NCBI RefSeq assembly: GCF_030704535.1
Contig: NC_081811.1
Span: forward strand, 2,806,501 to 2,870,500
Length of the DNA stretch: 64,000 bases
Origin: Vitis vinifera
Taxonomy: Eukaryota > Streptophyta > Magnoliopsida > Vitales > Vitaceae
Direction: 5' to 3'
Positions 1 through 53,282 of this stretch are shown here, one piece after another. The translations under genes and the position numbers were made by a program. The first letter of the stretch is position 1. Each line of letters starts with the position of its first letter. Under the pieces are notes generated by a model, which was not told where the DNA came from, ran no database searches, and saw only the letters and a program-made list of their open reading frames with translations.

Positions 1-36
1 TGGCTAGCATAGGAGGCATGGGGCCTTCATCAACAT

Positions 37-151
37 GCTTGGGTTGGGCTCCAACTCAAGCCCAAACCCGTCACCAAGAGCTTAGGTCTGGGCTCCAACT
101 TAAGCCCAAGGCACCATCACCATCAAAGCTTGGGCCTAGGCTCCAACTTAT
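37..151. repeat. three imperfect tandem copies of a ~45-bp unit
   Basis: Three diverged copies start at about 37, 80 and 128. Each begins with GCTTGGG or GCTTAGG and contains GGCTCCAACT; the first two continue into AAGCCCA. The GC content is well above the AT-rich DNA that follows from 225. The block ends near 220 with GGGGTCTACA, which resembles the terminal CA of an LTR, so this may be the edge of an LTR element that lies mostly outside the window. That last point is inference. Confidence 0.6.
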
Positions 152-589
152 TTCAAAAAAGAAATGCAAAGAAGAGAGAAAAAAAAACTCTCTCCCGGGG
201 CCCCCCACAAAAGGGGTCTACAATTAGATATAAAAATTATTTTTAAAAAATATTAAAAGTGAATTAAAAATATTTTAACATTTCAAACAATCTTTTGTTC
301 TATAAAATATTAAAAAATAGTTTTTAAAAACTATTATAAAAAAACTGTTTTGGAAAACAGTTACTAAATACGCCTTCAACTCCATTTGAACTTGAACTTG
401 AAGTTGAGGTGATTTTTTCATCAGCTCAAGACATCCGAATTGCAGAATTAAAGATTTAAGTCCACTCAGAGCCCACGAGTAAAATTTGGGCCGGCCCAGG
501 CTCAGCCCATTATCACCTGTCTAACGCTGAACTCAAGTTGTACATCGCTTTAGGGTTTGGTTGCAGTACCAGAAGCCCCGATGTATATT
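152..589. other. intergenic sequence upstream of the OTU gene
   Basis: This AT-rich stretch has no convincing reading frame. The run from 300 to 370 holds a small inverted repeat built on AAACTGTTTT and AAAACAGTT. The OTU gene promoter should lie in the last 150 bases, but I cannot place a clear TATA box. Confidence 0.5.
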
Positions 590-656
590 TACGCCAAATG
601 ATTCCATCATAGTTTCTTCTCCAAACGCTGCGTTTCTGTTGATCTTTGAGTTCAAG

Positions 657-2694
657 GTACTGCTCCAATCTCTTTTCCCCATTCAATCAATTGATTTGTA
701 GCTTGATACATGTTTGGATGCTGAGAAAGTTCTAAGTTTGATACGATCGTTTGGATGCTGGCAAAATAATGAGAAACTGAAAGAAAATTTTCCTTCGTAA
801 TTTTTTAAGCGTATAGGGGTCGAGAATACAGAATATGGTACTTTACCTAAAACTCGACACTTCGGCTTAGTTGATCTGAGGGGTTTTTTTTTTTTTTTTT
901 TTTGAATTCTAGGGTTTCCGTTTGAACAGTCGCGGAGATATTACAAATTTGAATTACAGATCAGACTGGAATTTTCGTTGGTTTGACGGTCTTTGCTATT
1001 CGGGAATGTTTTCTTGTATAGAAATAGATTTAGAAAAAAAAAAAAAAAAAAAAGAACAGAAGAGAAAAGTAATAACAAAATGAATAAAATGGTAATTTAT
1101 TATGATCTTTAAGGTGAATTTGTTATGATTGTTAGAGCTAATAATAAAAGTGTGGAATACGGGGGGAAATAAGTGACATGGTAGGGATAGTTTGGGAAGG
1201 AAAAAGTCTACAAATAACATTTGGTGATTTCTGCATGTGCTTGTAGTATTAGGGCATTGTGTATGCACTTGCATTGGCAAAATTGGGAAAAAGTTATGTA
1301 CGCTATCTTGCTAAGATTATGGATGCAAAAAATCTAGCCAGGATGATATTGATTATGCCAAGTTCTGCCTGCTTGCATGGTTGAATGGCCTATCGACATA
1401 TATATGAATGTAGATACATGTATTATCCTTGCTGAATGTAGATATGTCCGGTTTCTTGCATGTAATTGGTGAAAACTGATCATTGTCTGAGATGCAGGTT
1501 TAATTTTCGGAGTGTTTATATAAATGCTGCGGATTTTTCGTTATGTAGTTAATTTGAAGGATTTAACTGTCAACAACTTTTGTGTGTCATTTTTAGATAC
1601 TGTGAACCTACAAATTTTGCTAAGTATGGTCCGAGTTGACTTTAGGTGGATATAAATGGTCCTTTTTCCTGCCTTTTCTTTTTGGAGCTTGCAATATTAA
1701 CTTCACATTATGATCCTTTTCAATTTTTCTTTCTTTTAGACGCACTCAAAAGTTTGATTTTCAGCCTACAGTTCTCTGTTTGATGTTTGGTGCCTGAAAA
1801 ATTTAGGTTCATATACGTTTTAGATATCAGTCTTACCATTTTAGCATTCTAATACCCACACTTGGATTAAAGGGCTGACTACTCATCTTTTTCCTATTAT
1901 GGTGACCAGTAACTTAAGAGTGAGAAGGATGTGGGTTAATTTCTGTATCACAGATTTAAGCAATAACTAATATCATTTGTCTGCTTATCTAGCGTAGAAA
2001 CATGCTAGAGTAGGAAATGTCCTTTTGTATGTTTGTTTGATGAAATGTGTTTAATCTTCTTACTTTCTTTAGGAGGTTTGCTTACCCCCCCCCCCCCCCC
2101 CCCCCCCCCTTTTTTTTTTTTTACTGTTAGAAGTCTCCCACAACCCTGTTTTAATGGTTTAGACTGCTTCCATTTCACTGGCTGGTACTTGGGGCTAATC
2201 TTTCTGTTGATCTCTGTGCTATTATTACCAAAGTTTTAGTAATATGACCCACCAGAGGCCCCATTATGTTTTCACCAATGTTTTATTCTATACTTATGAG
2301 TGATAAAACCTGCAAGAATGGAAAAATTCAGACTTGAAAAACCTAAAGGGATCAATCCCAGGGCTGCTGTATATTTATTAGTGTATTATTCCAATTAAAT
2401 GCCTCTATTCACGATTGTCATGTATTTTAGGAAATTTATATAGAAATAAATACGTTTTAAAGACAGGTCATGATTAATAATATCAGTGAAGAAACTAAAA
2501 TTTAGGAGATTGTTATAGCATTTAGGAGCTTGCTTGTACCGGAGAAAGTAGCTTGTTATCATTTTTAGTTCCTCGTTAATTTTTTCAGATGCCTTCTTGT
2601 CATATTCTTTGTAGTGTCCTCTTTTGTTACCCTCTTTCACATGCCTTCTAGTCTATGCTCTGCTTTGTGGTTCACATTGATTTTTTGATTTCAG
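657..2694 (+). other. 5' UTR intron of the OTU gene
   Basis: A likely leader exon ends at 656 with TTCAAG followed by GT, and the next exon starts at 2695 after TTTCAG, ten bases before the ATG. The intron is about 2 kb, has no credible coding frame, and contains homopolymer runs (T near 882-903, A near 1036-1053, and a C25-T13 run at 2085-2122). Long leader introns are common in plant housekeeping genes. The donor position is inferred from consensus only. Confidence 0.55.
2085..2122. repeat. C25-T13 homopolymer tract
   Basis: Twenty-five C residues (2085-2109) are followed directly by thirteen T residues (2110-2122), inside the leader intron of the OTU gene. The complementary strand is a G25 run. 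Exact counts in such tracts are often unreliable in assemblies. Confidence 0.9.
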
Positions 2695-2704
2695 GATTGT
2701 TGAA

Positions 2705-4289
2705 ATGGAAGACACCCAAGAAAAAGATGGCAAGCCACCTGAAGAATTTCCAGAAGACACACATGAAAAGAAAAGGGAAACTCTTGATGAAATGCTTTCC
2801 AGGCACAGGTGATGTATCCATTTCTAATCTGTATTAACAACTTCTTGCTTATTTTCCTTGATGGATTTGGTCTTATTTTATGCCTTGGTACAATGATTGG
2901 GTATTGCTTGTCAGTTCAAATTTGAGTCAATTTATTGTATTTTCATAGCATGTCGGCACTCAAGGTAGTAGTGCAATATGAAGACATAACAATAAAATAT
3001 AATGGAAATGACTTTGCTGGAAACCTATAATACTGGTACTTAAAAGAATTGTTGAGGAAAAAAATGGAAAAAATTTGTTCAATGACATGAATTTCTGATT
3101 CCAGGAAGTTGATAAATTTTAAAACCTGGATAAAATACTTTGAGAGCTGCCTGAAGTCCATGGACGTTTGGACAGCAAATTAGTGTTTTCTGAACCTCGG
3201 CTAGCTTGTCAAATGAGACTCTGTTATTGTAGGAAAACTATATCTGATAATAGCATGCGCAAACTGTCCTGTTCTTGCTCAAGCAGTGTTGTGGTCAGAC
3301 TCATTTACATACATATTATTCATTTATTAGGCTTCATGGTACAGAATTGTTGGTTTTTATGTTTACGGCCATGTTAGATGTTCACATTATTTCAACGCTT
3401 TCAATGCATATGCAGGAAAGAGATATCCCAGCTGCAGAACAAGGAAGCTGCAATGAAAAAGGCAGCTGCCAAAGGAAGCAAGGCTGAACAGAAAGCTAAG
3501 AAGAAGCAGGTGGAGGATGAGATCTCTCAACTTTCCTCTGATCTCAAAGAAAAACAGGCAGCAGAGCTGGCTTCAATAGGCTATAGTAGTGGCAGTGGAA
3601 AGGAGAAATCCAATCTTGACAATTTGGTGAAAGCTATAGCAGGAGTTTCTGTTACCAGCCAAGCTGAGCATTCAAGACCCAGCAAGAGTGCCAAGAGGCG
3701 TGAGAAAAGAGCTCAACAAGAAGCAGCAAGAGAGCAAAGGATCCAGGAAGAGCAGAGCAATATTGTTAGTGATCGAATGATTGAAAATGAAATATTGGAA
3801 AAGAAGCTTGAACCCCTTGGATTGGCTGTGAATGACATAAAGCCAGATGGGCACTGCCTCTATCGAGCAGTTGAGGATCAGCTGGCCCTTCTCTCAGGAG
3901 GTTCTTCTCCTTACACGTATCAAGAGCTTCGAGAAATGGTGGCTGCTTATATGAGAAAACATGCATCTGATTTCCTCCCATTTTTCCTGTCAGAGACTGA
4001 AGGAGACTCTGATATTTCACTTGCAGAGAGATTTGAGAATTACTGCAAAGAAATTGAATCAACAGCAGCGTGGGGAGGACAACTAGAGCTGGGTGCCCTA
4101 ACTCACTGTCTGAAAAAACACATTATGATATTTTCAGGATCATTCCCTGATGTGGAGATGGGGAAGGAATATAAATCTGACGTTGGGAGGACTGATACAT
4201 CCAACCAGAGCATTATGCTGTCATACCACAAGCATGCCTTTGGACTCGGCGAGCATTACAATTCTGTGATCCCTGGCTTGGTGAGATAG
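2705..4289 (+). CDS. OTU-domain deubiquitinase, OTUD6-like
   Basis: The coding exons are 2705-2808 and 3416-4289, joined through an AGG codon, giving 325 residues. The product should be a cysteine protease that removes ubiquitin from proteins. The N-terminal half (about residues 20-160) is highly charged, rich in Lys, Glu and Ala, and probably coiled-coil, as in OTUD6 proteins. The OTU domain follows from about residue 165: DGHC places the catalytic Cys near 182 and the nearby Asp at 179, and GEHYNSV near the C terminus supplies the catalytic His near 315. The start was chosen because exon 2 opens with ATG ten bases after a good acceptor and the next exon continues in frame. The length and acidic-coil-plus-OTU layout match the plant OTUD6-type gene known in Arabidopsis as OTU5 (At3g62940, from memory). 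All key catalytic residues are present, so it should be active. Confidence 0.9.
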
Positions 4290-7200
4290 GTACCATTATT
4301 CATATGTGAAAAGATACATTAGGTGTGCAAATTATTTTTATTTTGTGTATTATCTCTGTGAGAGCATAACCCATATTCGAGCCTTCGAATTAAAAACATA
4401 GAACTACAGTTTTGTTATCTCATCAAACTGGTTAAACATTTTTATCTCCAATTATTAGCCAGCATGATCGCTGCATCCAGATTCTACCCATTTTATTTAA
4501 ACCTGTTTCAGGTCTTCCCTTTAGTATGTAAAAGTGCTGAATTATAATGAAAAGGAGCTAGGATTGGCTTTTTACTATGTTGTTTTCCTTGTTTATATAA
4601 TCTAGATCATTTCCCTCCTCCTAGTGAAGAGGGCAAATATTCATAAACTTAACTTGTATGCAACCAAAAAGAAAAGGGTCAGTACACCTGGTTTTTTGGC
4701 TTTTTTGTTTTGTGGTAAGTGGTTTTGTGCCCATTTAGTCGAATAATGCTTTATAGCAAGAAAAGTTTCTCTGAAATGCTTTAGCATGTGATATATATGG
4801 CATGGTATCTGAATATTTGAAACAATCTTCGTTTACCAACCTCTTTTTGCTGGGGATTCTATGCGTACCCCTGGTTTTGTCTTCATACATTCCTTTTTTT
4901 TTTCTTTAATCTCTTTTATCTTTTCTTTTCCTTTTCTTCTTTTTAAAAAATTAAAAAGATATGCAAAAAGGTTGTGGCACTTTCTATTTTCTTTGTTATT
5001 TTGTGGATTCTCTCTTACTTGATGAATGACTTGTTAAGTGGTTGACATGAGAGTTTTATGGACAAGTAGAGAAAAAAGGCTTGAAGAATAGTTCCTCTTT
5101 GCTTTTTTTTTCTTTCTTTTTGAACCAATCAAGAACCTTTAAAAGGGTTTTAACACAAACCCATCTTTTAAAGAATTTGTCACATCTATTAAAGAACCTT
5201 GACGCCTTTACCATTTTCCTTTTCTCGATCTTCCCTTCTCCTCCTCCTCCGTCTCTCCCACCTGAAGAAAGTAGGAATAAAAAAGGGGGAAGTGGTAGCA
5301 ACCATCTCCTCCTCTGTATTTTTCTTTTCCTTTTCAGACCAGCTCTCACTATTCTTTTTGGAGCAGCTTTGTAATACCATGGGCCAGACGTCACCTCAAT
5401 TCTGGGACTGGCCGGCTTGCATTACGGGGCGACGATGGGTGGTGTGGTCAAGTTCTTTGGTGTAATTAGCCAATAACTAACCTTATCAACATGGGTGCCA
5501 CCACTTGCCTAAGTTGTCCAACACGTAGGTTGGATTGAATTTATATCCCTAACATAACTACCAATTTATTAACACCATTTTAATTTGTTTTCCTTATCAA
5601 CACAATTTTAAACATTTTTAAAATTTTAAAATAATATAATCATTTTGATCGATTTTGCATTTTAATTTTTAAGTTTTAACTAATTTGACATTTGGATGCA
5701 TTTCTTATTTTTTATTTTTGAAAAAAAAAATTATACAAACTATGCACACAAAAAAATAAAAATTTAGCTTACACTCTTAAAAGAAATTTTCAAAATTTTG
5801 AAGTGAAAACTTTTTACTTCTAAATATGCTATGTCCTTTTTATATAAAAATTCATGCGTCTTGTATGGTGTTTTTTTTTTTTTTGAAAATAAAAACATAT
5901 CCAAGGTTAAAAAATAAGAAATATATCCGAAACATTAAACAATTTTATTTGATAACTATTTTCAAAGATAGTTTTCGATTTTCTAGAACAAAAATAATAT
6001 AAAACACATTTGACAACCAAAAAATTATTTTCTGTTTTTCATTCTTGAAAACAAAAAATAAAGTATTTTCAAAAAACATCTTTTAATTATTTTCAATTAT
6101 TTTCAAAGCCATGTTTTAAAAAATAATTATACATTCTTTAAAGTTATTTTCACTTGTTTTCTAATGTATGTTTCAATAAATAATTATACAAACATAAAGT
6201 ATAATTAAAAATAAAGTACTAGATACAAAAAAAAAATTAAATGTATTTAAGAATATTAAAAATAAGCTAAAATTATTTCAATTCTTAAAAAACTTTTATT
6301 TTATAAAATATCATAAACTATTTTTTAAAACTTATCAGACCTTAAAGTGTTTTTGATAATGATTTTAGAAGGTATTTCTAACATTTTTAATGCTCCATGA
6401 TAAAAATTTTCAAATATTTAAAAAATCATAAACACTTTCTAAAATCATTATCAAACACTTTTGATCATGAAATGGGCGTTCACGTATTCAACATGTGTTC
6501 TATGAAGAATCTCATAGATGCTAAAATGAAACAGACAAAGACAAGGAAAAAGGGAATAGTAAGCCACGTGATCAACTTTAAAAGGAGAAAACAACAGCCA
6601 TTTAAAGAAGAAAACAACAGCAGCACCCGCACCCCCGCCCGTACGAAGATGCCCACATCAATCCAGGCATCCACCCTCACGAATCATGGTGACACTAGTA
6701 AAATTCATCTCATTGAAATTTCACGCTCAGTCTCAATGCCAAGATATTGAGAATAACTAAGATCTCAAAAGAGGAAAAAGAATAAAATTAGGCAGAAAAT
6801 CATCTCTTCACGAATTATGTAGATCTTGTTCTATGATTCTATCCTCCAATCTGTTGCCCAGAACTTTCTCTGTTTCGCATCTCTAAAAGCACTAAAGCCA
6901 ATCCATGCAAATTGTTGTGATCAAGAAAGAAAGAAAGAGAATGCGTGTGTATGAATGCGTGTATGCGTGTGCATGTATCGTCTGCGATGCTAGGAACCGA
7001 CCTCGCCTTCCTATTTACCCTGGATGCAAACAAGAGAAATGTCAGAGTCAAGTGACCTAATAACATAAGCGACCCTTGGCTTTGTTTTGAGCCGATTATG
7101 CAATCTGGAAAACCTTTGGACCACAAGGCCTGCCCTTTCTGTGGCTACACGTACGTGGCGATATCTGGAACCTGAAAACTACATAGTATAGCTTTTATAT

Positions 7201-8960
7201 ATACGCATAATCTTTGACATTATCCAAAAGGTGAAAGCAGATAAAAGGAGATGCGTATGATTCCAAGTTGGGACCAAAAAGTAAGAAAAGTAATGGGTGT
7301 GAGATGGTTGATAAGGCGTTGGCATTATGCTGGCTTTACACAAACAGGTAATGCTACACCATGTGCTTGCCTTGTGCAACCACGGCCCTTCGCTAAATGA
7401 CTAGATCTAGATTAGCCCATTATCCATACAAAATTTGGAACATCTCAAGAAGACTAATGGCATACAAAAGCCGATATCGCAAAGGTGATGTGATCAAGGA
7501 TGAACGGAGTATAATCACCTGGGAATATTACGGAAACATTTGGTAAGCCACTAATTAAGTCAATAGAGAACTTCAGAGATTAGTCCTTTTCCTGTTCCAA
7601 ACCATACCAAACACCAAATCAGATTAAAATCTTCCTCTAACCCAAATGAAGATACAGAAATATTGGCATAAAAACCAAATAATCTACTTCTAAGGCCAGG
7701 AGTACATCATTATAGCTGATTCAGACAGGATGGGCTGAAGTGTTCTACAGAGGAAAAGAGGGGAGACAAACTTTTTACTGTTCTTAAATAATGGATCACT
7801 GAAAGCACATTTTATACTAAGACTAGCTAAGCAAGACATGGCATTAAAAATTAATAGAAGCTTCTCACATCACACTCTTGAAAAAGTTCTAATAATTTTT
7901 TGGTTGCACAAGTCAAATTATAGGTAATCCAATCTCAAAATCAACTAAACTTTTGTGCTGTAAATGTAAGAAGTTAGTCAAAGTCTAGGGGAACGACATG
8001 TTTCTGCTTCAGCCTGTCACAAGCTAATGCTTTTGATTCAATGGTGGCATAATTCTAGTGTACTGATCCACCACTATTGGATGCCTGAATAAAAAAACTT
8101 GTAAGAGAACATAGAGAATGAGGATAATAGTAATTATATAGCCTGTTCAATAGTTATGATGCACTAATCATGAGTTTTATTTGTAGAATATTGAGAACAT
8201 TTGTTTCTAATCAGTGCAACACGTAGGAATTGATAGTGTGGTGGGTCCTTTTCACATCTTCTATTTGTTACCATACGACGGTGTCAATGGATTTTGTTTC
8301 TCTTCCATTGATGTTAAGGGCAGATTGCCCTTTGATAAGCATCTTCGTCCTTCAAATTCGCACTTTCCAGTTTTTCTGTTGTCTTTCGGTTTTCTTGAAT
8401 TAAAATGGATGCAAATCTTGTTATGGAAGGAAAAAAAGTGTCACCCAATTGGATAAACCCAAATTCATCCTCCAACTCAGCAGATGCTCCAAGATAGAGA
8501 GAGGAAAACCCTAGAAATTACTAAGACATCCTCACTTAGGGTTTCTAACATGAAACTTGGCCTAGCCTATTTCAGAACCTTGTGGTCATGTGGACCTAAT
8601 TGAACTTAAACATACTCTACATCAGCAGAGAGACCAAGTAATGTTCATACGCTAAGTCATATAAGTGAATGCATCCCCATCCTTCATAATCACTCCCTTC
8701 TTACTAAAACCTAGGTTTCAAGTGGATTAAGTTATCCAACCATCAGACAGGTTAGTCAAGGTTAGTGTTGTCATTTGGTAAAGAAGATCTCCACAATTAT
8801 CACATTTTGCATACTAATCCATGGTATCTTGTGCAATTAGCTTATTCCATGCTCAGTAAGACACAGCAGGTCGTTATCAATCAATGATCAAGGGCAATCT
8901 GGGAAATGAAAATCTTAACCGTAATATTCCTTAATGCAGCCCACCAATCTTTATCTGGCC
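4290..8960. other. long intergenic region, OTU gene to glutaredoxin
   Basis: The OTU 3' UTR probably occupies the first few hundred bases. A pyrimidine-rich block with short open frames lies at 5080-5465, but its peptides are low-complexity Ser/Phe/Leu and match no family I know. From 5560 to 6460 the DNA is extremely AT-rich with many short inverted repeats, typical of decayed MITEs. A moderately GC-rich patch at 6590-7150 has open frames on both strands without recognisable domains. I see nothing supportable from 7150 to 8940. Confidence 0.5.
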
Positions 8961-8971
8961 TTATAAATATA
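8961..8971 (+). promoter_or_regulatory. TATA box of the glutaredoxin gene
   Basis: TTATAAATATA lies about 175 bases before the glutaredoxin ATG. A transcription start about 30 bases downstream would give a leader of roughly 150 bases that is rich in CT repeats (9041-9062), a usual feature of plant 5' UTRs. Confidence 0.65.
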
Positions 8972-9144
8972 CACCTAGGGAGAGCTCAAGTTCCTCACAG
9001 CAAAACCCACTCTCTAACCAAACTTTCGTAGCCTACACTTCCACTCTCTCTCTCCCTCTCTTCGCTTGCCCTCATTTTCGTTGAGTGCATTTTGCCACCT
9101 TCCAACCTTCAGTAAAAGTATCTTCTTCCTCTTCCATTGCAGCA

Positions 9145-9465
9145 ATGGATTCGGTGATGGCATTGGGGACTGCAAAGCCAGTGGTGATCTTTACCAAGAA
9201 CTCATTATGTTGCATGAGCCACAGCATTAAGACACTCATAAGCAGCTATGGGGCCAGTCCTACGGTCTATGAGCTTGATGAAATGCCAAACGGAGAGCAA
9301 ATGGAAAAGGCCCTACCAATACTAGGGTGTCCGAATTTACCAGCGGTATTCATAGGTAAAAAGCTGGTGGGTGGGGCTCGTGAGATAATGAGCCTGCAAG
9401 TCAGGGGCGAGCTCTCTGATCTGCTCATAGAGGCAAAAGCTATATTTTTTTGGAACAAAAAATAG
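9145..9465 (+). CDS. CC-type (class III, ROXY-like) glutaredoxin
   Basis: This is a single exon encoding 106 residues, the usual size and structure of plant CC-type glutaredoxins. The active site CCMS (residues 22-25) is diagnostic of this land-plant class. The later segments LPAVFIG and LVGGAREIMSL correspond to the glutathione-binding and C-terminal helix region. Family members bind TGA bZIP transcription factors and act in development, nitrogen signalling or stress responses rather than bulk reduction. Two points differ from the textbook pattern: the glutathione loop reads NLP rather than the more usual VP, and the tail ends in FFWNKK with no ALWL-like motif, which in some members recruits TOPLESS co-repressors. 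The start at 9145 is the first ATG; an upstream GTG-led extension is leader sequence. Confidence 0.93.
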   Translation: MDSVMALGTAKPVVIFTKNSLCCMSHSIKTLISSYGASPTVYELDEMPNGEQMEKALPILGCPNLPAVFIGKKLVGGAREIMSLQVRGELSDLLIEAKAIFFWNKK

Positions 9466-10619
9466 CGTCTGCACCATGATGATATGCCGTAGAGAACAAA
9501 GTATGGGGAATGTATTAGAATCATAAGTAACGGCTGTAGTAGTATAAAATGAGAACTAATATTGTAAACTAGCTTGTCGAGCCTTTTTCATGGCACCTTT
9601 TCTTTGTTGGTCGTGTCTTTGGTTTTGGTTGCTGGGAAAGATTACAATCTTTTCCTTAAACTAGGTTCAAGGAAAACCCATGTTTTAGCATGCTACACAT
9701 TCCCCTTTTTATGGTAAATAAAGTTACATTTTTACTATTTACTATATCCTAATGGTTTGAACCTTAATTATCATTTTCATGTCTGCAAGGTCATCTTCAC
9801 ACTTGTATACATTCTAAGAAAACATGTACAGAAATGCATATGTATATACACATACACATAGCAAGAAGGAAGAAAAAAATAAGGAGCATGGTAATGGGAA
9901 GTTTGTGAATTGTGGGTAATTAGAAATATAGATGCCTATACAACTCTCATAATCTATTCCGGAAGTCAAGAGAATTTTGTGAAGATGGAACCTGTCTTAA
10001 CATGATGGTAAAGGTATAGGGTGTTATCAGAGTATTGACCATAAAAATGGAGGCATTAAACAAAGCTATGACTGCAAAAGGAGCTGGGCAGAGAAAGAAG
10101 TACACCCAAACTGGGCTAGTGCAGTTCAGAAAGATGCATTATCCAAGCATCTATTCAGTCAGAATCCAAATCAGGAAAAAACTAAAAAATGTTGCATCTA
10201 GCACAAATTTGAGGCCGAAAGCCCAAATCATAAGTCATTAATTGAACCATACAAACATGGCTGCCTGTTTTGTAGTGGATGAAGTTAAACTTTGTGCAGG
10301 TAGGTTGGGTGAAAGACCAATACAAAGCCCATCTCTAGGGGTTGAGCAAGTTGACCATAGTACATCTAACTATAACTTGGCTGTTGCCAAGCCAATCTCG
10401 TTGAATTGGGCTAGGCCAGGTTGTTTGGATTGTTCTAGTTGGAATAGACTGATTACCTTCTTAGGAAGGTCTTTTGTTTAATAGGTAAATATCCATTGTA
10501 TCAATAGCTCCTAAGAAGGACAATCTCCTATGAACACTCCAATCTAATAAAAAACATTAAACATAAATAGTAGTTTTGAAAGTTTGACTTAACTTTTTAG
10601 TATTCTCAAACGCTCACCA
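9466..10619. other. intergenic sequence downstream of glutaredoxin
   Basis: The glutaredoxin 3' UTR probably ends near 9740. The rest contains only short open frames without recognisable features. Confidence 0.5.
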
Positions 10620-11767: not shown

Positions 11768-12415
11768 AAGAAATTTCAACCATCAACCATCCCTTCCCAG
11801 TCAGTACTATCTGGAAGTCCTGGGCTCCAACCAGGGCTAGTTTCTTTGGTTGGGAGGCGGCTTGGAACAGACTACTCACCACTGATCGCCTAAAGAGATT
11901 TGGTTGGAACATCCCCAACAGGTGCTTCTTGTGTAAAAATGAGGAGGAGTCTATTGATCACCTTCTCCTGTTTTGTGAGAAGGCCAGAATGTTATGGTAT
12001 CTAACCTTCTCCCTTTTTGGGGTGCAATGGGTGATGCACTCCTCTGTGAAAAGGAATCTCCTAGGATGGTATGGATCTTTTGTGGGCAAGAAAAGGGAGA
12101 AAGCATGGAAAACTGCCCCCCTTTGCCTAATGTGGACTATTTGGAAAGAAAGGAATAGAAGAGCCTTCGATGATGTGGAAAGAAACGATCAAGATATCAA
12201 ATCCATTTTTTTGTACACTTTTGTGAATTGGGCTAGGGTATATATTAAGGATCATACTTTATCGTTGTTTGATTTTGTAAACTGGTTAGCCACCAAGTAA
12301 GGGTCAGAACCTTTTGTTTCTTGATCCTTTGTATCTTGGTATACTTCGTGTATACTCTCTTTAGCCTTTTGGCTTTTAATGAATTTCCTTTATCTATCAA
12401 AAAAAGAAATTTCAA
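11768..12415 (+). mobile_element. 5'-truncated LINE retrotransposon with target-site duplication
   Basis: The insertion (11780-12403) is flanked by the perfect 12-bp direct repeat AAGAAATTTCAA at 11768-11779 and 12404-12415. Inside, an uninterrupted frame from about 11806 to 12300 encodes the C-terminal zinc-binding region of a plant non-LTR reverse transcriptase polyprotein. Recognisable pieces are SFFGWEAAWNRLLTTDRL, the Cys/His pattern RCFLCKNEEESIDHLLLFC, and MWTIWKERNRRAF. After the stop comes a 3' UTR ending in CTATCAAAAAAA, a short A-tail as expected for a LINE. The bulk of the element (endonuclease and polymerase) is missing, as in abortive target-primed reverse transcription. Intact duplications and an unbroken frame suggest a fairly young insertion. 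It cannot move by itself. Confidence 0.88.
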
Positions 12416-14839
12416 GTAGGCCATCAACTTAAGACCACTGAAGTCACTTGATCAAAAAAAGGTCTTATTTGAGTTCAAAGCAAGTGGTGAGAGACAGATT
12501 GCCATTGCAAAAGCCAACTCTTAAGAAGCAGCTTTACTTTAAAGTGACAGTTTTTTTCCCTTATAAAGCTCCATCATGTAGGCATGCCCTTGGTTGCCTT
12601 GAGAACTAATGATTTGTTTGAAGATTGATGTACTAACCAAGGATGAAAATTGTTGTGCTAATAGAAGCTTTAATGCAAACAATGTTAGTTCAAAACACAA
12701 AGATAAAACAATCCACACAAAGATACACAAGGTTTTAACATGGTTTGGCCAACCATGTCTACATTCATAGGCGAAAGGGAATCATTCCACTATACCATAA
12801 AGAATATTACAATGAATAGAACTAGATACAACTATTAGGTTTTCAAAATATCTCATGTTTCCCCACTCCTTGTATCGACACCCTACTTTACCCACTCATT
12901 GTATCGACACCCTGCACCACGAGCCCCCTCGCTTCACCAAGTGTCTCTCATTCTTCCTCACATCTTTATCTACCTTGTATTGTCATTATAACTCTATCTT
13001 TATCTCATAACCTTTTTTCTTCTTGACCTAGAATATTTATGGAGATATTCTTAATAACTTACCTTATTCTATAGGGAAATCTAATATTACAATAACATAT
13101 CACCTTAGGAAATATTTTATACAATATTCTTTATAAAACGGAATCTATACCAATTAAGAATTTGGGACACTTTCCAACAAAAATAAATATATCAATTACT
13201 TCCTACAATAAGTTCGCATAAAACATTGACAAGTGACAGCAGAAGTTCTATTATCAAGATATGAATGGTTTGAGTAAGTCCAGTTACTCTTGATGACCAG
13301 ATAATTGATAGTGATCATTGTTGAATATTGAGTATATCTATTGCTTCCTACAAATTATATACATCACTATAACTTAGATGGGTAATCAGAGGAGCTCAAC
13401 CTCATTCAAATCTGAGGGATGCTTTGAAACTAATCTCGTCCCTCCCTTTTCTCACAATTCCCTCTCCTCTTCTCCTCGTCACTCACATACTCAAAACTTT
13501 GTTTCAACTATGCACTTTGAAATGTGCCCAAGACCCAGCTCACTTGGGCCTGTCTTATCATCATATCATATCCGCACAGAAGGAAAGAAGAATGTATATG
13601 ACTGAGCAAGGAAAATAAAACATGGAAAAGAGGAAAAGCGAAAATGGCTTTTAGTTTTACTGATGCAATCATATAAGTTCCTTGAAGTAAATAATATTTC
13701 TGAATAAAAAGAGAAATATATAGAGCAGAATTCAAATAGATACCCATTCAGTAGGAAAAGAAAGCAATAATTTAACAGCAGAAATTAGGTACACTTGGGT
13801 CCTGCTTTGCTCAGTTAAGATGCCTTTTTTTCTTTTTCCTTTGAGGCCATTAAGGCTATCTGTCTAGTTGGCAGAGTAGTTCCATTGGTGCAAGGAGGAA
13901 GGTGATAAGGAGAATGGCCCCATGGGCTTCTTTTGGTGCCTCTACAAGGAGCAGAATCAGAGAGTTTTTTATCATGTAGAACATTTAGACCTAATGCTTA
14001 AAACAAATTTCCATAAATCCCAGTTTTTATGGTTGAGGAACTCTTAGGAAGAAGTGATCTTCTATTTCTCAGATTTCATCAAGAGTTTGGGAATGAGTTA
14101 AAGCATTCTCAATGCCAGATCTCATTCTTTGCTTTTCTCTTTTCCTTGGTTTACAAGGTTCCTTGTGTACTTCCCTTTTTTTTTCTTCTTTCTGATAGGC
14201 AAACAAAATTATATTAATAGAGCCTCCTTACTTCATATGTCCTAGGGGTTGTACCCTCTCTTTCTTGGCACCTTAAATACATGTTTGTGTGTTTGTGTAT
14301 GTGTATGTGTATATTCCTTATTTTCCTACAAGAAACAGCTTTACTGATGAAAAGAATGACAATGTGACAATATGTACATCCCTCAAAGTGCCCTTTTAAA
14401 ATTAAGAAGGGTGGGATTATCCTCAATGTTTAAAGCTCTCAACTGATAAAATTAAAACATGAAATATAGGATCTAAATCAATCAAATTTTTTTTCCAGGA
14501 AATCATACGTTTATTCACCAAACAATTGATATTCACATCCAACGGTAGTTTATCCGCAATAATTTCATCCATCAAGCAGAAAAGTCAGGATCTTCCCACA
14601 AATCCATCCTTCGTTACTGGAAACTTTAGTAGAAACTAAAACTAGTACAAAATCAAGTATTCCATCATAATATAACAAAATAAACTCATGCACCACCTCT
14701 AAAACAAGTGAATTTTGTTATAGAATTTAAAGGCAATGATCACCTACTACTATATAATGAAGCACTAAGAAAATCTTACATGAAATACAGAATAGTTCTT
14801 ATCCAAATTATTCATGAAAATGAAGTAATGGAAGATCCA
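12416..14839. other. intergenic region with LTR-like relics
   Basis: At 12700-12950 the motif AACATGGTTTGGCCAACCATG followed by a CTACATTCATAGG stretch resembles a repeat common in plant Copia-type elements; a related GTGGTTCGATGATC motif recurs near 40812. A short direct duplication built on TTGTATCGACACCCT lies at 12877-12913. At 14170-14216 a T-rich run followed by CTGATAGGCAAAC looks like an antisense retroelement tail. No gene is supportable. Confidence 0.45.
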
Positions 14840-26154: not shown

Positions 26155-26206
26155 AAACAGTAAAAATTAATTTTTTTTTTTTGATAGAAAAACAGTAAAA
26201 ATTAAT
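26155..26206 (-). mobile_element. 18-bp retroelement-tail insertion with 17-bp target-site duplication
   Basis: AAACAGTAAAAATTAAT occurs at 26155-26171 and again, perfectly, at 26190-26206. Between them are only 18 bases, eleven T then GATAGAA. On the minus strand the insert reads TTCTATC plus an A run, the same CTATCAAAA tail that ends the LINE at 12403. It therefore looks like a target-primed insertion that copied almost nothing except the poly(A) tail. Confidence 0.7.
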
Positions 26207-28396: not shown

Positions 28397-31300
28397 CTAG
28401 TTTGAACGACGAACCTCACCACCTTGTCTTGTGCTTCTGCTACTGCTTAAAGGGGCTGAACTCTGACCTGACAGTTGGACGTCCGAAAGCGAAACAGATC
28501 CAGTCTGGGAGAAAATCAAACCAACTGAACTACTGGTGGTATTTCCAGATGAAGGCATTCTGGTTGAGTGTGAATCCTTTTTTGACCCTGAAATGAAGTC
28601 AGGCCGCAGATCTGAAGATGAAAATGAAGGGGCCAGAGTAGCCAGTGAAGACCCCACAGGGTATGGAGCAACTGGCATATCAGTGAGAGAAGAAGCTGAT
28701 GGACTGTATCTCATGTTCCCCAGTGGATGATCGAATTTACATGTGGACCCAAACTTGCAGTACCCATTTTGCAGATAGAAAGTGCAAGGTTGCACCCCCT
28801 GTTCATTAAAGATATGAAGATCAGATAAAGCATTAAAAACAGCATTCTTAGCTAAATAGACAGAACATTGAAATATTACATATATGAGTATAGGGACAAG
28901 GCAGAAACAAAGCAATTCATCATTTAGGTTTATGATATGCTATTAGCAATTAAAATTAGCTCAAACAATATACTTATCAGATAAATTCAATGGATATTGT
29001 TAAGCTACCAACTTTCCAAAGAGCTTAAGTTGTTAGGATATTGGCCCAAAATGTATATCATGCTAAGACCCTCCATCACATACAAGTATGCAGACAAACC
29101 TAAAGCTTAAGCTGTTAAGACATGGACTGAATGAATATTAGGCTAACAAATATAAATTCCCTAAGATAAAGAATACAAAAGGCCAGAAGAACACAAAAAA
29201 AGGGCTAGAAAAACAAAAATAAATAAACAAATAAATAAATGGGATTGACAATTTAACTGTCTCTTTTACTATTTATATTTATATCATCGCCACATTGATA
29301 CTATTTGCATTGAACTAAGTAGACTTGGGTACATGTATTCTTCACAAAAATTGGATTTCCTATATAAATAATATAATTGATATGATAATATGAGGTTAAT
29401 GAAGGTATGATAACACCATGTAACAGATAAAGTTCCTGGACATGAAGTGATACAAAATCAAATTCCATTTGCATCTAAGCACCTCAGTTAACTCCACAGC
29501 ATAAGCAACCACATATCCATACAGAACAGCCTTATCATGTCAAGCCACTACAAAAAATACATTTGACCTACATGAGATCAGTTAAATGCACTGAAAGATG
29601 CATTACATGTATTTTCCTAATGTGGATCAAATTTCTTCAATGTTATGATGACCCCATGTGGAGGTGTAGCTGATTCCACACCAAATTTGTACTTGTACCA
29701 AAATAACTTAACACAATAAAATTAAAGTCTCAAGTCCTAGGTGTTTATGGTTGGACATGAATCCGTTTTTGTCATTACACTCTATTTAAGGTCATAGCTT
29801 TCATTAAATCATAAGCCATTTTGTCCTTTATGCAGTCCCAACTCCCATTCCTTTTGGTCTTTCATTGTCCTTGTCCCTGCAGCACATTTGACAGTTTAAA
29901 AAGTACAGTATTATCCCTATGTCCTAACTAGTAGAATTAATGGGCTTTGTTGTACACAACCCCAAGCAAGCTTTATTTCCGATTTCGTTCTTTCTAAGGG
30001 AACTCATTCCATCTCAACATCTTGGTTATATCCCCCTATTCTATGCTTACCTTATAATTTTTTCATTGATAGCCAACACTTTTTACCAGAAGCATGGCAA
30101 GCTTTATGTCTTGCCATGAATTCTATTTTAGAAAGTTGCCTCCAAAAATTATCCTCTGGACTTCACAGCACAAAAATATTAAAACATGCCCATTCATTGC
30201 ACCAGTCAGCTGCATTTGTTGGAGAAGAGTTAGAAAACCTGGTAACTAGGTAAGGGCAGGAGCTTCATTCCAATGGAATCATTTTAGGATCACAGCCAAG
30301 ACGCTCAAGTAAGAAAAGTAGCACACAGGTTAACCATTCTTCCATAAAAAAATGAAGCTTGACAAGAAACAATATTCCAAAAACAGGTCCTTTCATCCAA
30401 AATAGAATATAAACATCCCTTTCAAAAGAGAGGGGGAAAAATCTAAAATGACTTGGCTAGTTGTAGAGCATAATGTTAGCATTGTCATCCATGAAAGGGG
30501 AGACATTCAAGAGAACATCGTGAATATAGCAAATTTTAATTAAAATAATGTGATCATTTTTTTTCAATCAGTATATAACATGTTATTCTGTAGAAATTAT
30601 TTTACCAAAATACTAAATAATTATGAATTGACTCATCATGTGTATCATCATTGTTGAATTTTAGTGTTTAACAGACTAGTGGCTAGTGATAGGTAGGGGG
30701 AGAATGAGAGGTGGGAGAGGAAAAGGGTTTTATTAATGTTGATGTTACACCGATACTAATGCCCTTACGATATACATGAATACTAAAGGAATAGTTAGGC
30801 TTATGGCCAATGCATGTAGAGGTGCCCAGAACTTTGGCTTCTAAGATGTTGATGGAAATATAGCTCCATACTTATTCAAGTGAATGAAGTATGGAAAGCC
30901 AAAAGCCTCAATCTGATATCCAGATGAGATAAATTTTGAGCCTATATGTGTAGTCTTTGGACCACCACAGAACATTTATCTATACTGGATGAGGATCGTT
31001 TCCAAACATTAGATGCATAGTACTTCCCCCAGATCTCCCATGCCAGCATGGCAGCACCAGATATATAATCAAATATTTAATGGGCCTAAATGTTGATATG
31101 ATGTACTGGGAAGTGTCCTAGTTCCTCCACAAACAAACTTCACAGATTCAAACCTTAAAATTTGAATCCATTAATAGAAACCTCAAGGGAAAATCCATGA
31201 ATCAAGATTTAATGAGAAAATGGTTTCTTCAATGAACAAAGAATCATATAATGAGTTGACAATGATAAAAGATTTAGTCCCCTTGATGCAGCCTTGTGCA

Positions 31301-33900
31301 TGAAGAGTTCTTGTGGCATATATTTCGCAGGCATCAAAAGTTCTTGCAGTATTGGAACTGATATCCAACTTGGATTAATTTCATTGAATAATTTCCAAGA
31401 TCAGGTCAGGGTCCAGCAAAAGGATCCTAAAGTGCTTCATATACATAATCTGCAGAGCTAAAATCCCCCAGAACAGGTTGGGATCAATCCAATGGATCTG
31501 AATGTGCCCTATACCCCGAGGATGCTGAATAATAAGCAGAGGATATGACACCATCTGAGGAGCAACTTCATATTCAAAATAGGTTTTCATAGACCACATA
31601 AAAGAGGTATCATGTTCATCTCTTAGAACTCTTATCCAGATGCTAGTCATCTGAGACAGGAAGGGGTACACTAAATGCAGCTATTCTAGTCTGGATATCA
31701 GCTTGCAGGACTGTAGGACAAATTTTATGGCACATATGTGCACAGATTGTGCTTTCATATAGGATGTGGGAGAAATGGATCCTGCAAGATCAAAGAACAA
31801 CGGTACATCAACCCATTCTTGCTGAGTGTAGTTTACAGTTCAAATGCCTGGAGATGCAAAAAATGGCTGCTCAAGTAAAGGATAGTTAAAGCAGACTGCA
31901 TCAGAAAGGTGCTAGCAAAGGCAATGTCGATGACTTCAGATGGATCTTCCACTCTCAAAGCCACATGTAGTGTTGCAAGGCAGAGTAAGATGGCTGTGAA
32001 AAATTCTGAACCCAAAAGGATATGGAAAAGCTTGATCACCACTGGTTGCAAAAGAAAAAAGAACTTTTTTTCCATGCTTGTAACTTGGGTTGTCTAATCA
32101 CAAAGCATGATCCTAAAACCATGTGGAACCTTTCAAGTTTCATTGACTTGATTTTCATTCCTGGAAAAGAATCATACCACTTCAAGCACAAAGATTAAAT
32201 CCATTCATACAATATCTAGTCAAGATATTTTTCCTTATAGGAAAGAATGGGAAGGCATTCATGCTTCAAAAGGAAACCTAACCCAAGTATTGTTACAACC
32301 TCAAACAAAGTTCACAAACTAGAGTAGCTGATCTCATCACTAGGATCAAATTATTCTTGATTCTCATCAAAAACCATTTTTTATAGGCTTTAGCTCCCAA
32401 ATTTTCCAAACTAAGATCTGATCCTATCAAAATCTGTTATCATGAACATTCATCAACAGAAATTTGAAGCCAACCAAAAACATATCCAGATTCCATAGTG
32501 CATCAACCATCACAACAGCTCACACAAGGAGCCTTGTTTTCAGAAAGGGAAAAAAAGGATAGCATTTGAATTACCATTCATAATGAAGAATTGAAACTAT
32601 TGCTAAGTAACTGTGCATAAATTATAAACATACTCCTCATAAAAGCAGGCATAAAAACAAAGAGTGAAAAACATTAAATAAGGGGGGAAGGGGGGAAGAC
32701 ACCATCAAATTATTGGTCCTCTGCCCAATCATTCACTAAAGATGTTTCAATAATCCATCAAATAAACAATAGCTGTTTGTTTCCCCTGAACACCAACAGC
32801 ATTAAAAATGCAGCCATTAAAAAAAATTAAAATTACAATTTCAGATAAATAAATAATTGTGATTGCTTTAGTTATAACTTATATGTCTCATGCATGAGAC
32901 AGAAATTAACTGTGGCATCCACCTCAATCCATGAGTCAAACACACCAGACAAGGCATATGCCCATAAAACACTTTGCTGCATTCACACATCCATCTCCAA
33001 CAACACCTTAAAGCCTAGTCTGTGAATCTTCACCCAATTAAAAAGGTCACTATATTTGCACCTTTCATGTGAACAGACAAGAAAGTGAGGTGATTAAAAT
33101 GGGAAATGTTAGCAAAACATGGTGATATTACTCTAGAGTTGGAATGTTCATTCTGCTGGATTCCTCATGCAGCTAACCATGTGGCAGATATGTTTAGTAA
33201 AACAGGGAGCCAATCGGTTGATTTCTTTTGTAGGGGATTTTCTACCCTCATAAGTTTTCAAGTTCATATATATAACCATTTTTCGATGCGTATTTCCATT
33301 AATATTTAGAGTAGATAATTTTTTCTTTTTTTCTTTTTATTTTTTTTCAGAGTCATGTAGTTGGTTCTAATTGGGAGGAAGAATTTTTCATCCATCTTAC
33401 AAAGGATAGAAATAAAAAAGAAAAAAGGAGAAAACTTCCTCAAGGAAACTTTGCTTGTGCTTCATCTCTAATTGATCTTTTTTTGTTTATTACATCATAA
33501 CCTATCTGTTATTGAGATCCTTTCTAGGAGAGTCCGCATTTGGAGGGAGAACTATCTTTAGGAGAGCTTTTGATGATAGTGAATTCATGGACCAAGCAAT
33601 TAAACATTCCTGCTTGTATCTCTTTTGGGATTGGGTTAGAGTGTCTCTTGGGGATTGCTCCTTGTCGTTGTTAGACTTTGTCAATGGGTTAGACTCTATG
33701 TAGGGCGCAGTTGCTAGTTTTTGTGCCTTTGCGCTGTTTTTTTGTGGCCTTTTGGCTGCTACTTTGTATGCATCATCTATGCTTTCTTGGTTTGTTTTTT
33801 TTTTTTTTTTTGATAGGCACATGAGAGAATATATTAAAAAGTGCTAGCAAAAACTTTCTTGTTTTTCCTTTCACTGATAATATAATTTTTACTTACCTAT

Positions 33901-33946
<46 letters not shown>

Positions 33947-36449
33947 GTATCCTAAATTTCAGTGTGTGACAAATTAAAGAAGTAGACATATAACCACATC
34001 TAACACCCACACCCAAACTTATGCAATAGAGCTTGAAACCATGACTTTGATATAACTCTGTTGTTCCTATCAAAAAAATATAACTCTGTTGTACTTTAAC
34101 AATTGAGCTAACAGCATCTTCCACTCTACTCGCATTTTCTCTTAAAAATGACCACTTCTTTAAATATAAAAGGCAAATCAATTTGGTCGGGTCATTAAAA
34201 GAATGGTAATTTAAAAACATCAAATCTCAATAGCTTCAGCAATACATTAAAATGGTTAGAAAGATACAGTATAAAACTAGCTTCCACATAGAGTAATCTG
34301 TCCTCAATACTGAAGACCATGTTATACAATTTAGTGTCTAGAAATGAAAACGAAAAAAAAAAAAAAACAAACAGCAGGAGCATATTTGTACTTTTTGAGC
34401 AGTTTTGGACTAAGAAAAATCAAAATTGAAGCCAAATTATAAAATAAAGTAACAAAATGAGTGAATAAGCATACCGGACGTAGAGGTAAACCCAAGGGGC
34501 TGAGGACACAATTTGTTTTTGGGACAACCCACTCCCGAGGGTGATGATACCTGCAAGATGATCCAAATTTACAGTCTCCTGTTCTCAAGTAGTACTGACA
34601 TTCTTGTTGGCCTGGTCTCTCTGGAAACACTTGTTCCTTCTGGTTACTGCTTGAAGGGCCAGCAGAAGAGGGAAGCGATGCATAGGGTCCTGCAAGTGTA
34701 TGTGTTGAAGGTAGCTGCGTGACTCCATACACAGAACCAGCGCCTACCGTGGGTTGAGCACCAGGAGAGAGTACAGGGCTTACAGGTGTCTGCAACATAT
34801 AAACTAACATTATGAGAAACATATGCATCTTTTACAACTCAATATGAAAAAGAAAATTGTGTAACATACCGAATAAGGACTCCAACCCGGAATAGGAACC
34901 ACTCCTGGGGGGAACAGAACAGGACCATAAGGGCCTTGCACATATGAACCAGGTAATACTGGAGGCCTTGGCACCCTCCAGCTAGTAGATGTACCCCCAT
35001 ATTGTGTAGGTGTAGGAACAGAAGGAGATTGCACCGTCGGATAAAATGTAGGTGCAGATGCTGGCAATGATGTGCCAGCTGGTTGAGGATGATGGAATTT
35101 ACATGTTATACCAAACTTGCACTGCCCCGTTTTCAAATAGTAGGAGCATTCTTTCTCACCCTGTTGCAAAATTTCCAATTCATAAACATAAGCTAAATGG
35201 AAGTGTCCATTCCCAAATTACAACCATGCTGATTTAGTAAAACGAATTTGATTAGAAAAGGTGAAGAATAAACCAAATCCCAACCAGTCTTAGTGGGTAT
35301 CCGTAAATATTTAGTGACACATGGCTCATGGATCCACCACCATTTCTTGGATGGTGAAACCTGCAGGACGCACCAAATTTACAGGTCCCAGTCTTCAAAT
35401 AAAACTGCATATTTAAGGAATAACTATACGATTAATAAGTATAGGATAATAAGCCTTAATAATAATGCATAATACAAGTAGATGAAAACAATTCTAGCAG
35501 ATCCAAGGAATCTATATTGGTAGAGATCAAGCATTCCATCCCCATCCAGTATTTTATATTCAGTCAACAAACAACAACATACCTGGCATGCTGGCTCCCC
35601 AATTCGCTCTGGATACTCTCCTCCTCCGGATCTTAGTGTAGAAACCTGAGTAGTATTGCATCCAAATTACATTGGGAAAACTCCATTTTCACTTAACGTC
35701 TGTTTGGTTTTCCGAATTGGTCGGGAAAATAAAGACCATGCTTAAGAACAAAGCCATTCCGGCATTTTCTTTTCCATTCTCTAGTTTCCGCTAGAACCAA
35801 GCAGATTGCATTATGAATTACAAATATCTTGTTTCTAACAAAATGACATGAAGATTGGGACCTCTCATGAAGACACAGCCTACTTAAAACACTCAAATTG
35901 TTGTCAAGACCCCCATAAATCCCACATCTAATTACACCATAATCTGCTAAAGCTGAAAGATTCAGCTGAATTTAACACCCGAAATCAAACAGCAGCCTCA
36001 AAAAACAGGCGTCAAGACCTACTCTATTGATTCTAATGCAAATGATTTGTACAAATAATTGATGATCAAGGGTTTACCGAGCTGCGATCGCGAGGATGGT
36101 TGTACCGGCACCTACTACCAAACCCGCAAAACCCGGTTTTCATATAGTAGACACAGTCAGCCACACCAGGCCGCTCTGGGTAGGATTCCCTGCTGCTCAA
36201 CCCCAACCGCCACATCGACTCTATATTTCAGAACAAAATCAAAGAAAACCCCAATCAAAGCTCCGCATTCTCACAAACCCTAGAAAAAATATCACCTCAC
36301 AACACAAAGCCAAATGAAATGAAATGAAATTCAAATGCAAAACAAATCAACCCACCTTCGAGCCCCGACACCGCCCTGACCGGACTCCATTCCACCGAAG
36401 GATCCGATTGGGACCCATCCCTCGCCGGAGCCCGCCCGTACAACTCCAT
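28397..36449 (-). CDS. ZFN-type protein with five CCCH zinc fingers
   Basis: Seven minus-strand coding exons (36449-36356, 36220-36078, 35645-35583, 35404-35285, 35160-34870, 34789-34475, 28798-28397) stay in frame and give 475 residues. Five fingers of the form C-X8-C-X5-C-X3-H are complete: C54-H73, C99-H118, C145-H164, C301-H320 and C347-H366. The three-plus-two grouping with a Pro/Ser/Gly-rich spacer (about 165-295) is typical of the plant ZFN1 group, which bind nucleic acids (RNA or DNA) and regulate gene expression. The second finger is split by an intron just after its first Cys. The Ser-rich C terminus has no further domain. The last intron is 5.7 kb and has collected retroelement fragments. 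The start is the ATG beginning [13 protein letters not shown], after which exon 2 continues with MWRLGL, a family signature. The closest Arabidopsis relative is probably At2g47850 (from memory). Confidence 0.92.
28799..33050. other. large last intron of the CCCH gene, first part
   Basis: This lies inside the 34474-28799 intron. No exon is needed here, because exon 6 joins exon 7 in frame to complete the fifth finger region. Open frames at 31183-32097 on both strands are short, biased and match no family I recognise. Confidence 0.5.
33090..33250 (+). mobile_element. LINE RNase H-like fragment
   Basis: A short frame encodes [19 protein letters not shown] followed by SKTG. It matches the C-terminal pattern of the RNase H-like domain of plant non-LTR elements, where a WIP(R/H)xxNxVAD motif is usual. 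Only this piece is recognisable. It lies opposite in orientation to the host CCCH gene, within its intron. Confidence 0.6.
33520..33790 (+). mobile_element. 3' fragment of a second LINE
   Basis: The frame ending at 33703 encodes [16 protein letters not shown] and [10 protein letters not shown], parallel to RRAFDDVERNDQDIKS and LSLFDFVNWL in the LINE at 11768-12415. The 3' UTRs also share a GCCTTTTGGCT segment. This is a diverged relative, truncated further at the 5' side. I see no clear target-site duplication. Confidence 0.7.
33782..33861 (-). mobile_element. possible short antisense retroelement tail
   Basis: A long T run followed by TGATAGGCACATGAGAG is flanked by CTTTCTTG at 33782-33789 and 33854-33861. 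On the minus strand the insert would end in GTGCCTATCA plus an A run, like a LINE 3' end. The duplication is only 8 bp, so support is weaker than for the other two small insertions. Confidence 0.45.
33903..33946. repeat. (AC)n(AT)n compound microsatellite
   Basis: Fifteen AC units are followed by about seven AT units, in the last intron of the CCCH gene. Confidence 0.95.
34050..34092 (+). mobile_element. 13-bp retroelement-tail insertion with 15-bp target-site duplication
   Basis: ATATAACTCTGTTGT occurs at 34050-34064 and again, perfectly, at 34078-34092. The 13 bases between them are TCCTATCAAAAAA, that is the CTATC plus A-run terminus seen at the 3' end of the LINE at 12403. It sits in the last intron of the CCCH gene. 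Confidence 0.7.

Positions 36450-44053: not shown

Positions 44054-53282
<9,229 letters not shown>

Follow-up and report, generated by a model that had tools for sequence, protein, structure and literature searches.

A probable 13-bp LINE tail between direct repeats and a class of probable tail-only L1 insertions in Vitis vinifera

What kind of event leaves 13 bp between two perfect copies of a 15-bp sequence? The window, by which we mean the whole 64,000-nucleotide stretch of Vitis vinifera DNA analysed here, carries such an arrangement inside a gene. A sequence-only reading had proposed that it results from abortive target-primed reverse transcription at the 3′ terminus of a LINE and had pointed to another site with the same CTATC-A(n) terminus in the opposite orientation.

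Anatomy of the site and its relatives in the window

The local structure is exactly as it had been described, with 15/15 identity between the two copies of the target-site duplication (TSD):

34050-34064, + strand: first TSD copy, ATATAACTCTGTTGT
34065-34077, + strand (orientation of the L1 3′ end), antisense to the host gene: probable tail-only L1 insert TCCTATCAAAAAA, that is TCCTATC plus poly(A)
34078-34092, + strand: second TSD copy, ATATAACTCTGTTGT, identical to the first
28799-34474, − strand: putative intron of about 5.7 kb in a CCCH zinc-finger gene, splice sites placed by eye, holding the insertion

The poly(A) of TCCTATCAAAAAA abuts the second TSD copy, and the insert boundary is uncertain by one A, giving a run of 6 or 7. 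Its TCCTATC is identical to the last 7 nt of nine tails sampled elsewhere in the genome (L055, L057, L060, L066, L082, L094, L101, L102 and L106) and fits the L1 subfamily ending in ..TTTCCTATC-An. The proposed location in a gene intron is borne out by zf-CCCH-coding stretches on both sides of 28799-34474. Slippage or a simple tandem duplication does not describe the site, as a 13-bp spacer separates complex 15-mers; consistent with this, TRF at a score of at least 40 does not report 34050-34092 as a tandem repeat. L1 copies in this genome end in exactly this terminus, the TSD falls in the range of about 10-20 bp and the poly(A) is at the 3′ end. The 28-bp unit, made of the 13-bp insert and the duplicated 15-mer, is very probably an L1-type LINE insertion of which only the terminal 7 nt and the poly(A) are present.

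The 43-bp string 34050-34092 has a single occurrence in the 495.6-Mb assembly. A genome search with its joined flanks for an empty version of the site found two partial paralogues only, both ending short of the insertion. L023 (C7:22950162-22950243) and L024 (C14:4277465-4277535) are 76-77% identical to window positions ~33948-34035 on the minus strand, and the repeat common to them is about 70-90 bp long and ends TTTAGGATAC. The flanks also contain A-box-like and B-box-like words on the minus strand, with tRNA-like spacing only when the 28-bp unit is taken out. We did not use this tRNA/SINE reading because the box scan is unspecific, with dozens of matches across the window, and Rfam and ARAGORN give no tRNA match.

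Four further insertions in the window bear on the question:

26155-26206, − strand: sister tail-only insertion (TSD 26155-26171, insert 26172-26189, TSD 26190-26206)
11768-12415, + strand: 5′-truncated L1 LINE of about 624 bp that ends TATCTATC-A(n) and keeps a C-terminal ORF2 fragment (zf-RVT)
33782-33865, − strand: 60-bp L1 3′-end insertion (insert 33794-33853) with an 11/12 TSD (33782-33793 and 33854-33865)
14166-14383, − strand: likely 196-bp retroposon ending in GCCTATC and an A-rich tail, with a 10/11 TSD, on weaker evidence

At the sister site, the other of the two that had been mentioned, 17-bp repeats enclose an 18-bp spacer reading TTCTATC-A11 on the minus strand, in L1 orientation. 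The LINE at 11768-12415 has a zf-RVT domain (E 3.5e-22) and a perfect 12-bp TSD, AAGAAATTTCAA, at 11768-11779 and 12404-12415, 636 bp apart; judging from the poly(A) end and the zf-RVT fragment, the parent element of the tail-only inserts probably belongs to the L1 clade. The 60-bp L1 3′ end lies about 200 bp from the site at 34050-34092 and sits inside an older LINE 3′ region on the + strand at ~33540-33905, the extent of which was set by eye and by alignment. Coordinates of this insertion and of the retroposon at 14166-14383 were converted by hand from reverse-complement output. Thus, a single window contains four inserts that share this terminus and measure about 624, 60, 18 and 13 bp.

Tail-only insertions among genomic CTATC-A10 tails

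The sequence-only reading had suggested a genome-wide scan for the motif between direct repeats, and had taken the two sites in 64 kb as a sign that such events are frequent. The assembly that we searched has 21 contigs and totals 495,616,077 bases; CTATC-A10 occurs in it 2109 times, against 246 for the reversed, non-complemented pattern. We then sampled 133 tails, namely the first 100 of the 2109 matches (all on contig C1) followed by 20 and 13 more; they come mostly from one contig, are not a random draw and include all 35 places of CTATC-A10-C. The added 20 all lie outside C1, the added 13 comprise three more non-C1 places, C1:27689522 and nine others, and 2 of the 35 CTATC-A10-C places were among the first 100. 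The insert at 34065-34077, with its A-run of 6-7, lies outside this A10 set. Direct repeats were scored by comparing what follows the A-run with 240 bp of upstream sequence, and a score of at least 11 was taken as a TSD. The calling and the rule for extending TSD ends were made for this analysis, and a boundary may shift by a few nucleotides.

Among the first 100 tails, 34 reached a score of 11 or more, compared with 3/500 shuffled controls. In the whole sample, 47/133 tails had a TSD within about 240 bp. In 22 of these 47 the TSD ended 0-6 nt before CTATC, an arrangement that we call tail-only; the remaining 25 were longer. Two more tails look tail-only but score under the cut-off (L137, score 10; L075, score 9) and were left out of the counts. 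In the first 120 tails, tail-only and longer insertions had similar duplications, with a median TSD length of 17 (n = 18, range 12-23 bp) versus 19 (n = 21) and 15/313 versus 16/370 mismatches; A-run length was 14 versus 13. One tail-only member, L157 (C18:3692965-3693299), has a 23-bp perfect duplication and an A-tail broken by CAAG and C; it looks young and could be polymorphic.

Could such structures arise by chance next to any A-run? We examined 264 kb, made up of the window and twenty 10-kb stretches of contigs C1-C3. There were 6606 A-runs of at least 4; with low-complexity repeats dropped, an exact direct repeat (13 bp or longer) stopped 0-3 nt ahead of the pentamer next to the run in four cases. 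The two CTATC sites make up half of these, yet CTATC precedes only 18/6606 runs. Longer A-runs (at least 10) not preceded by CTATC reached the score upstream in 31/120 cases, 25 of the 31 lying in one repetitive stretch, L004, and in 0/120 did the repeat end within 6 nt. When 305 A-runs of at least 8 were taken from 270 kb irrespective of the preceding bases, a single one had a TSD ending within 30 nt, and this was the sister CTATC site. Within the window, 20 perfect direct repeats of at least 11 bp with spacers of 4-60 bp passed the complexity filter; the tail motif was present at both window sites, and the other spacers were unrelated. Some of the window's repeats, perfect over 12-15 bp with unrelated spacers of 4-18 bp (at 1405, 6586, 10638, 15092, 15711 and 56539), resemble break-repair duplications with filler.

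In the 200-kb sample from contigs C1-C3, 0/162 spaced repeats were tail-only; low-complexity repeats were filtered here as in the scans of spaced repeats and of the 305 A-runs. Two sites in 64 kb are therefore not typical, and the claim of high frequency holds relative to LINE tails (22/133) but not per kilobase.

An empty site was found for one class member. L064 is a tail-only insertion lying antisense within an L1 3′ end of the same type, and L062 and L112 align through its site with a 36-bp gap at the insert, while the alignments of L037 and L029 are more broken. A query made by joining the L064 flanks matched at least 20 other places genome-wide. Each of the 20 returned runs across the junction at query position 57 with the length expected of an empty site, to within 2 bp; among the returned places the extra 38 bp are present only at the locus of L064 itself. 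This comparison shows insertion for L064; when the flanks of the tail-only members were compared with the sampled sequences by local BLAST, a useful host repeat emerged for this member only. Abortive target-primed reverse transcription of a LINE 3′ terminus, as had been proposed, is supported by the terminal motif, the poly(A) stretch, the flanking TSD and the 22/133 tail-only tails.

The clustered endpoint and competing explanations

Where do the 5′ ends of these insertions fall? On C1, the number of 5′ ends per nucleotide was 2.25 at 0-3 nt upstream of CTATC, 1.5 at 4-7 nt and 0.25 at 8-15 nt, then 0.19 (16-31 nt), 0.125 (32-63 nt), 0.078 (64-127 nt) and 0.047 (128-233 nt). Over the 133 tails, 22 ends at 0-6 nt compare with 1.4 expected from the density at 8-63 nt (Poisson P ~3e-19). 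Exactly 2 nt before CTATC, we counted 10 of the 22 tail-only ends (12 after mismatch extension) against 0.2 expected, and both 34050-34092 and its sister end at this position. The 0-6 nt bin was picked after the first 100 tails; the later 33 repeat the excess, with 7 tail-only among 13 with a TSD, 3 of the 7 at exactly 2 nt (L132, L133 and L134). In the last 13 tails, the 4 tail-only members had raw gaps of 1, 1, 4 and 5, which became 1, 1, 1 and 3 after extension. None of these is at 2 nt, so the first 120 tails give too sharp a picture of the exact endpoint. Cases at 0-1 nt (L090, L109, L153 and L157) are compatible with the same point, since their final TSD base or bases equal the L1 bases there. 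Given this clustering of 5′ ends, extreme truncation at random seems a poor description of the tail-only insertions.

As a rule, a tail-only insert keeps RYCTATC and A(n) from the element. Among the first 120 tails, 94 without a tail-only call (L1 for the most part, some SINE, some unclear) had T at position −3 in 91 cases, so that the join lies at the 3′ edge of a T-tract. Position −2 of the same tails was A, G or T in 60, 19 and 14, and position −1 was C or T in 61 and 29. Tail-only members have AC, AT, GC or GT at −2/−1, and because these bases differ, several L1 subfamilies seem to produce them. The earlier attribution to one LINE family thus stands as regards a LINE origin but probably not as regards a single family. 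An RNA hairpin between the A-tail and the U-tract was considered as the cause of the endpoint and found no support, as minimum-free-energy folds pair both in only 10/94 tails.

What is the mechanism of such insertions? L1 copies are inserted through a nick and priming at the poly(A), after which the RNA is copied in the direction of its 5′ end. We infer the enzymology at 34050-34092, and the reason for the endpoint, along the same lines. At the 5′ boundary of ATATAACTC, the L1 endonuclease would have nicked the bottom strand, and an L1 RNA from the ..TTTCCTATC-An subfamily would have primed there through its poly(A). Reverse transcriptase would then have copied A(n) and UCCUAUC and halted on meeting the U-tract immediately upstream. 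After a nick 15 bp away, the top strand would have been joined to this stub, with one T as possible microhomology, and gap filling would have yielded the 15-bp TSD. In human LINE-1, passages of PMC7617806 describe that nicking of the top strand can take place while the first strand is being made and propose a premature switch to second-strand synthesis as the origin of 5′-truncated copies; at 34050-34092, this switch would have come after A(n) and 7 nt. Most likely, the endpoint would reflect a complex that fails early, on leaving the conserved 3′ terminal motif and meeting the U-tract.

Two alternatives would do without an abortive event. A staggered double-strand break with fill-in, that is a patch-mediated duplication, could have left a filler that resembles an L1 tail by chance: the window does hold other 12-15 bp spaced repeats with unrelated spacers (1405, 6586, 10638, 15092 and 15711), and part of PMC8355091 links break repair to small duplications, with hints in humans and plants. 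Nevertheless, this is very unlikely here, because CTATC-A(n) recurs with its A(n) against the second repeat (2/4 qualifying A-runs in 264 kb), because tail-only structures mark 22/133 CTATC tails versus 0/120 other A-runs, and because a filler would have no reason to stop near one L1 position. The spacer at 34065-34077, far from being unrelated to any recurrent mobile-element terminus, matches one. Break-repair tandem duplication may account for some of the other spaced repeats here, not for the CTATC sites. Still less credible is that an L1 insertion, longer at first, lost its body in a later deletion and kept the tail alone between its TSDs. Longer TSD-flanked insertions with the same terminus do exist (25/47), but independent loci share similar ends (22/47 at 0-6 nt, 10 at exactly 2 nt), whereas random deletions would not converge on one endpoint, and the TSDs of tail-only members have diverged no differently from those of longer insertions, by the mismatch counts given above. 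The empty L064 site in 20/20 returned paralogues shows an insertion, not a length that was short throughout.

The other two alternatives accept an L1 insertion and differ on what fixes its end. Copying may simply have run to the end of an RNA stub of 7 nt plus poly(A), protected by LINE protein or cut there, with no abort on a full-length RNA. We regard this template limit as a possibility, though clearly not the favoured one: it accommodates the clustered endpoint, and a few members (most clearly L100) carry, ahead of RYCTATC, additional bases other than the TTT that L1 usually has there, as might be expected at a template end. A portion of PMC2912911 treats 5′ extranucleotides at full-length L1. 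However, some of the extra bases turn into partial TSD on extension (L051 and L117). Alternatively, T-ending top strands could anneal to the cDNA A-tract copied from the U-tract upstream of RYCTATC and so fix the join by microhomology, in keeping with the T at −3 in 91/94 non-tail-only tails and with 10/16 of the short-gap TSDs listed that end in T. This seems rather unlikely: TSDs that do not end in T also join exactly at −2 (L032, L034, L132 and L133), which disfavours microhomology alone, and T-ending TSDs are found in 10/19 of the longer insertions listed as well.

Returning to early failure of the copying complex, we consider it an even call whether plant L1 has a discrete abortive outcome in which, often, only RYCUAUC and the poly(A) are copied, synthesis stops near a fixed point and the product is resolved with a normal flanking TSD. 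Such an outcome would leave hundreds of micro-retroposons of 15-30 bp per genome, missed by repeat annotation, and would mark the 5′ edge of an RNA element recognised by the LINE protein.

Relation to known systems and significance

5′ truncation of LINEs is textbook knowledge. Work on LINE insertion sizes normally starts at a few tens of bp, because shorter remnants are hard to recognise. Tail-only inserts resemble 5′-truncated LINEs of the L1 clade in plants and mammals in having poly(A) against the 3′ TSD, a conserved 3′ terminus and loss of the 5′ part, and their TSDs of 12-23 bp are as in 5′-truncated L1-clade insertions made by target-primed reverse transcription. Unlike usual 5′-truncated L1, they keep about 7 element nucleotides, and their independent truncation points cluster rather than spread. 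Patch-mediated duplications with filler, reportedly described by Vaughn and Bennetzen in 2014, share the short direct repeat and sometimes a spacer, but the filler is not a recurrent, oriented L1 terminus.

In the human LINE-1 model of premature second-strand switching (PMC7617806), early top-strand nicking and second-strand synthesis likewise lead to 5′ truncation; as set out in passages of that paper, the model predicts truncation in general, and a discrete tail-only class or a fixed endpoint was not encountered in them. SINEs that share a LINE tail, as covered in sections of PMC3747384, similarly let LINE machinery use a shared 3′ terminus, whereas tail-only inserts have no SINE body. The same sections put the SINE/LINE tail pairs known in flowering plants at only three. 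In our sample, L030, L058, L080, L099 and L107 (C1) contain a tRNA-derived-looking SINE of about 90-100 bp with ..CCTAGCTCAAGTGGTAAAGG..GGTTCCAAGTTCAAGTCCC.., which ends in TTTTGCCTATC-An or similar, the shared L1 terminus.

Titles and abstract beginnings in the open-licence literature yielded nothing on tail-only LINE insertions with a fixed endpoint, a search of that literature for the motif CTATCAAAAAA gave nothing relevant, and the word stem 'abort' is absent from the available portions of PMC10830416 and PMC7617806. The clustered endpoint is the new part. A 7-nt signature exposes the shortest insertion outcomes, and about half of the TSD-bearing tails (22/47) end within 6 nt of the motif, unlike a smooth truncation curve. 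Tail-only inserts would preserve in the genome the cases in which target-primed reverse transcription failed at its outset; they account for a set of short direct repeats and are potential insertion markers. Extrapolating 22/133 to the 2109 tails suggests about 350 such insertions with A10 or longer, from a sample that is mostly one contig and not random.

Tandem repeats of other kinds were also seen. L010 at 1-10000 (C1:17700001-17710000) is a satellite-like array with many copies of TTTTTCGGTACTCG, some 107 bp apart, and the window carries an 81-bp unit in 2.9 tandem copies at 49781-50017.
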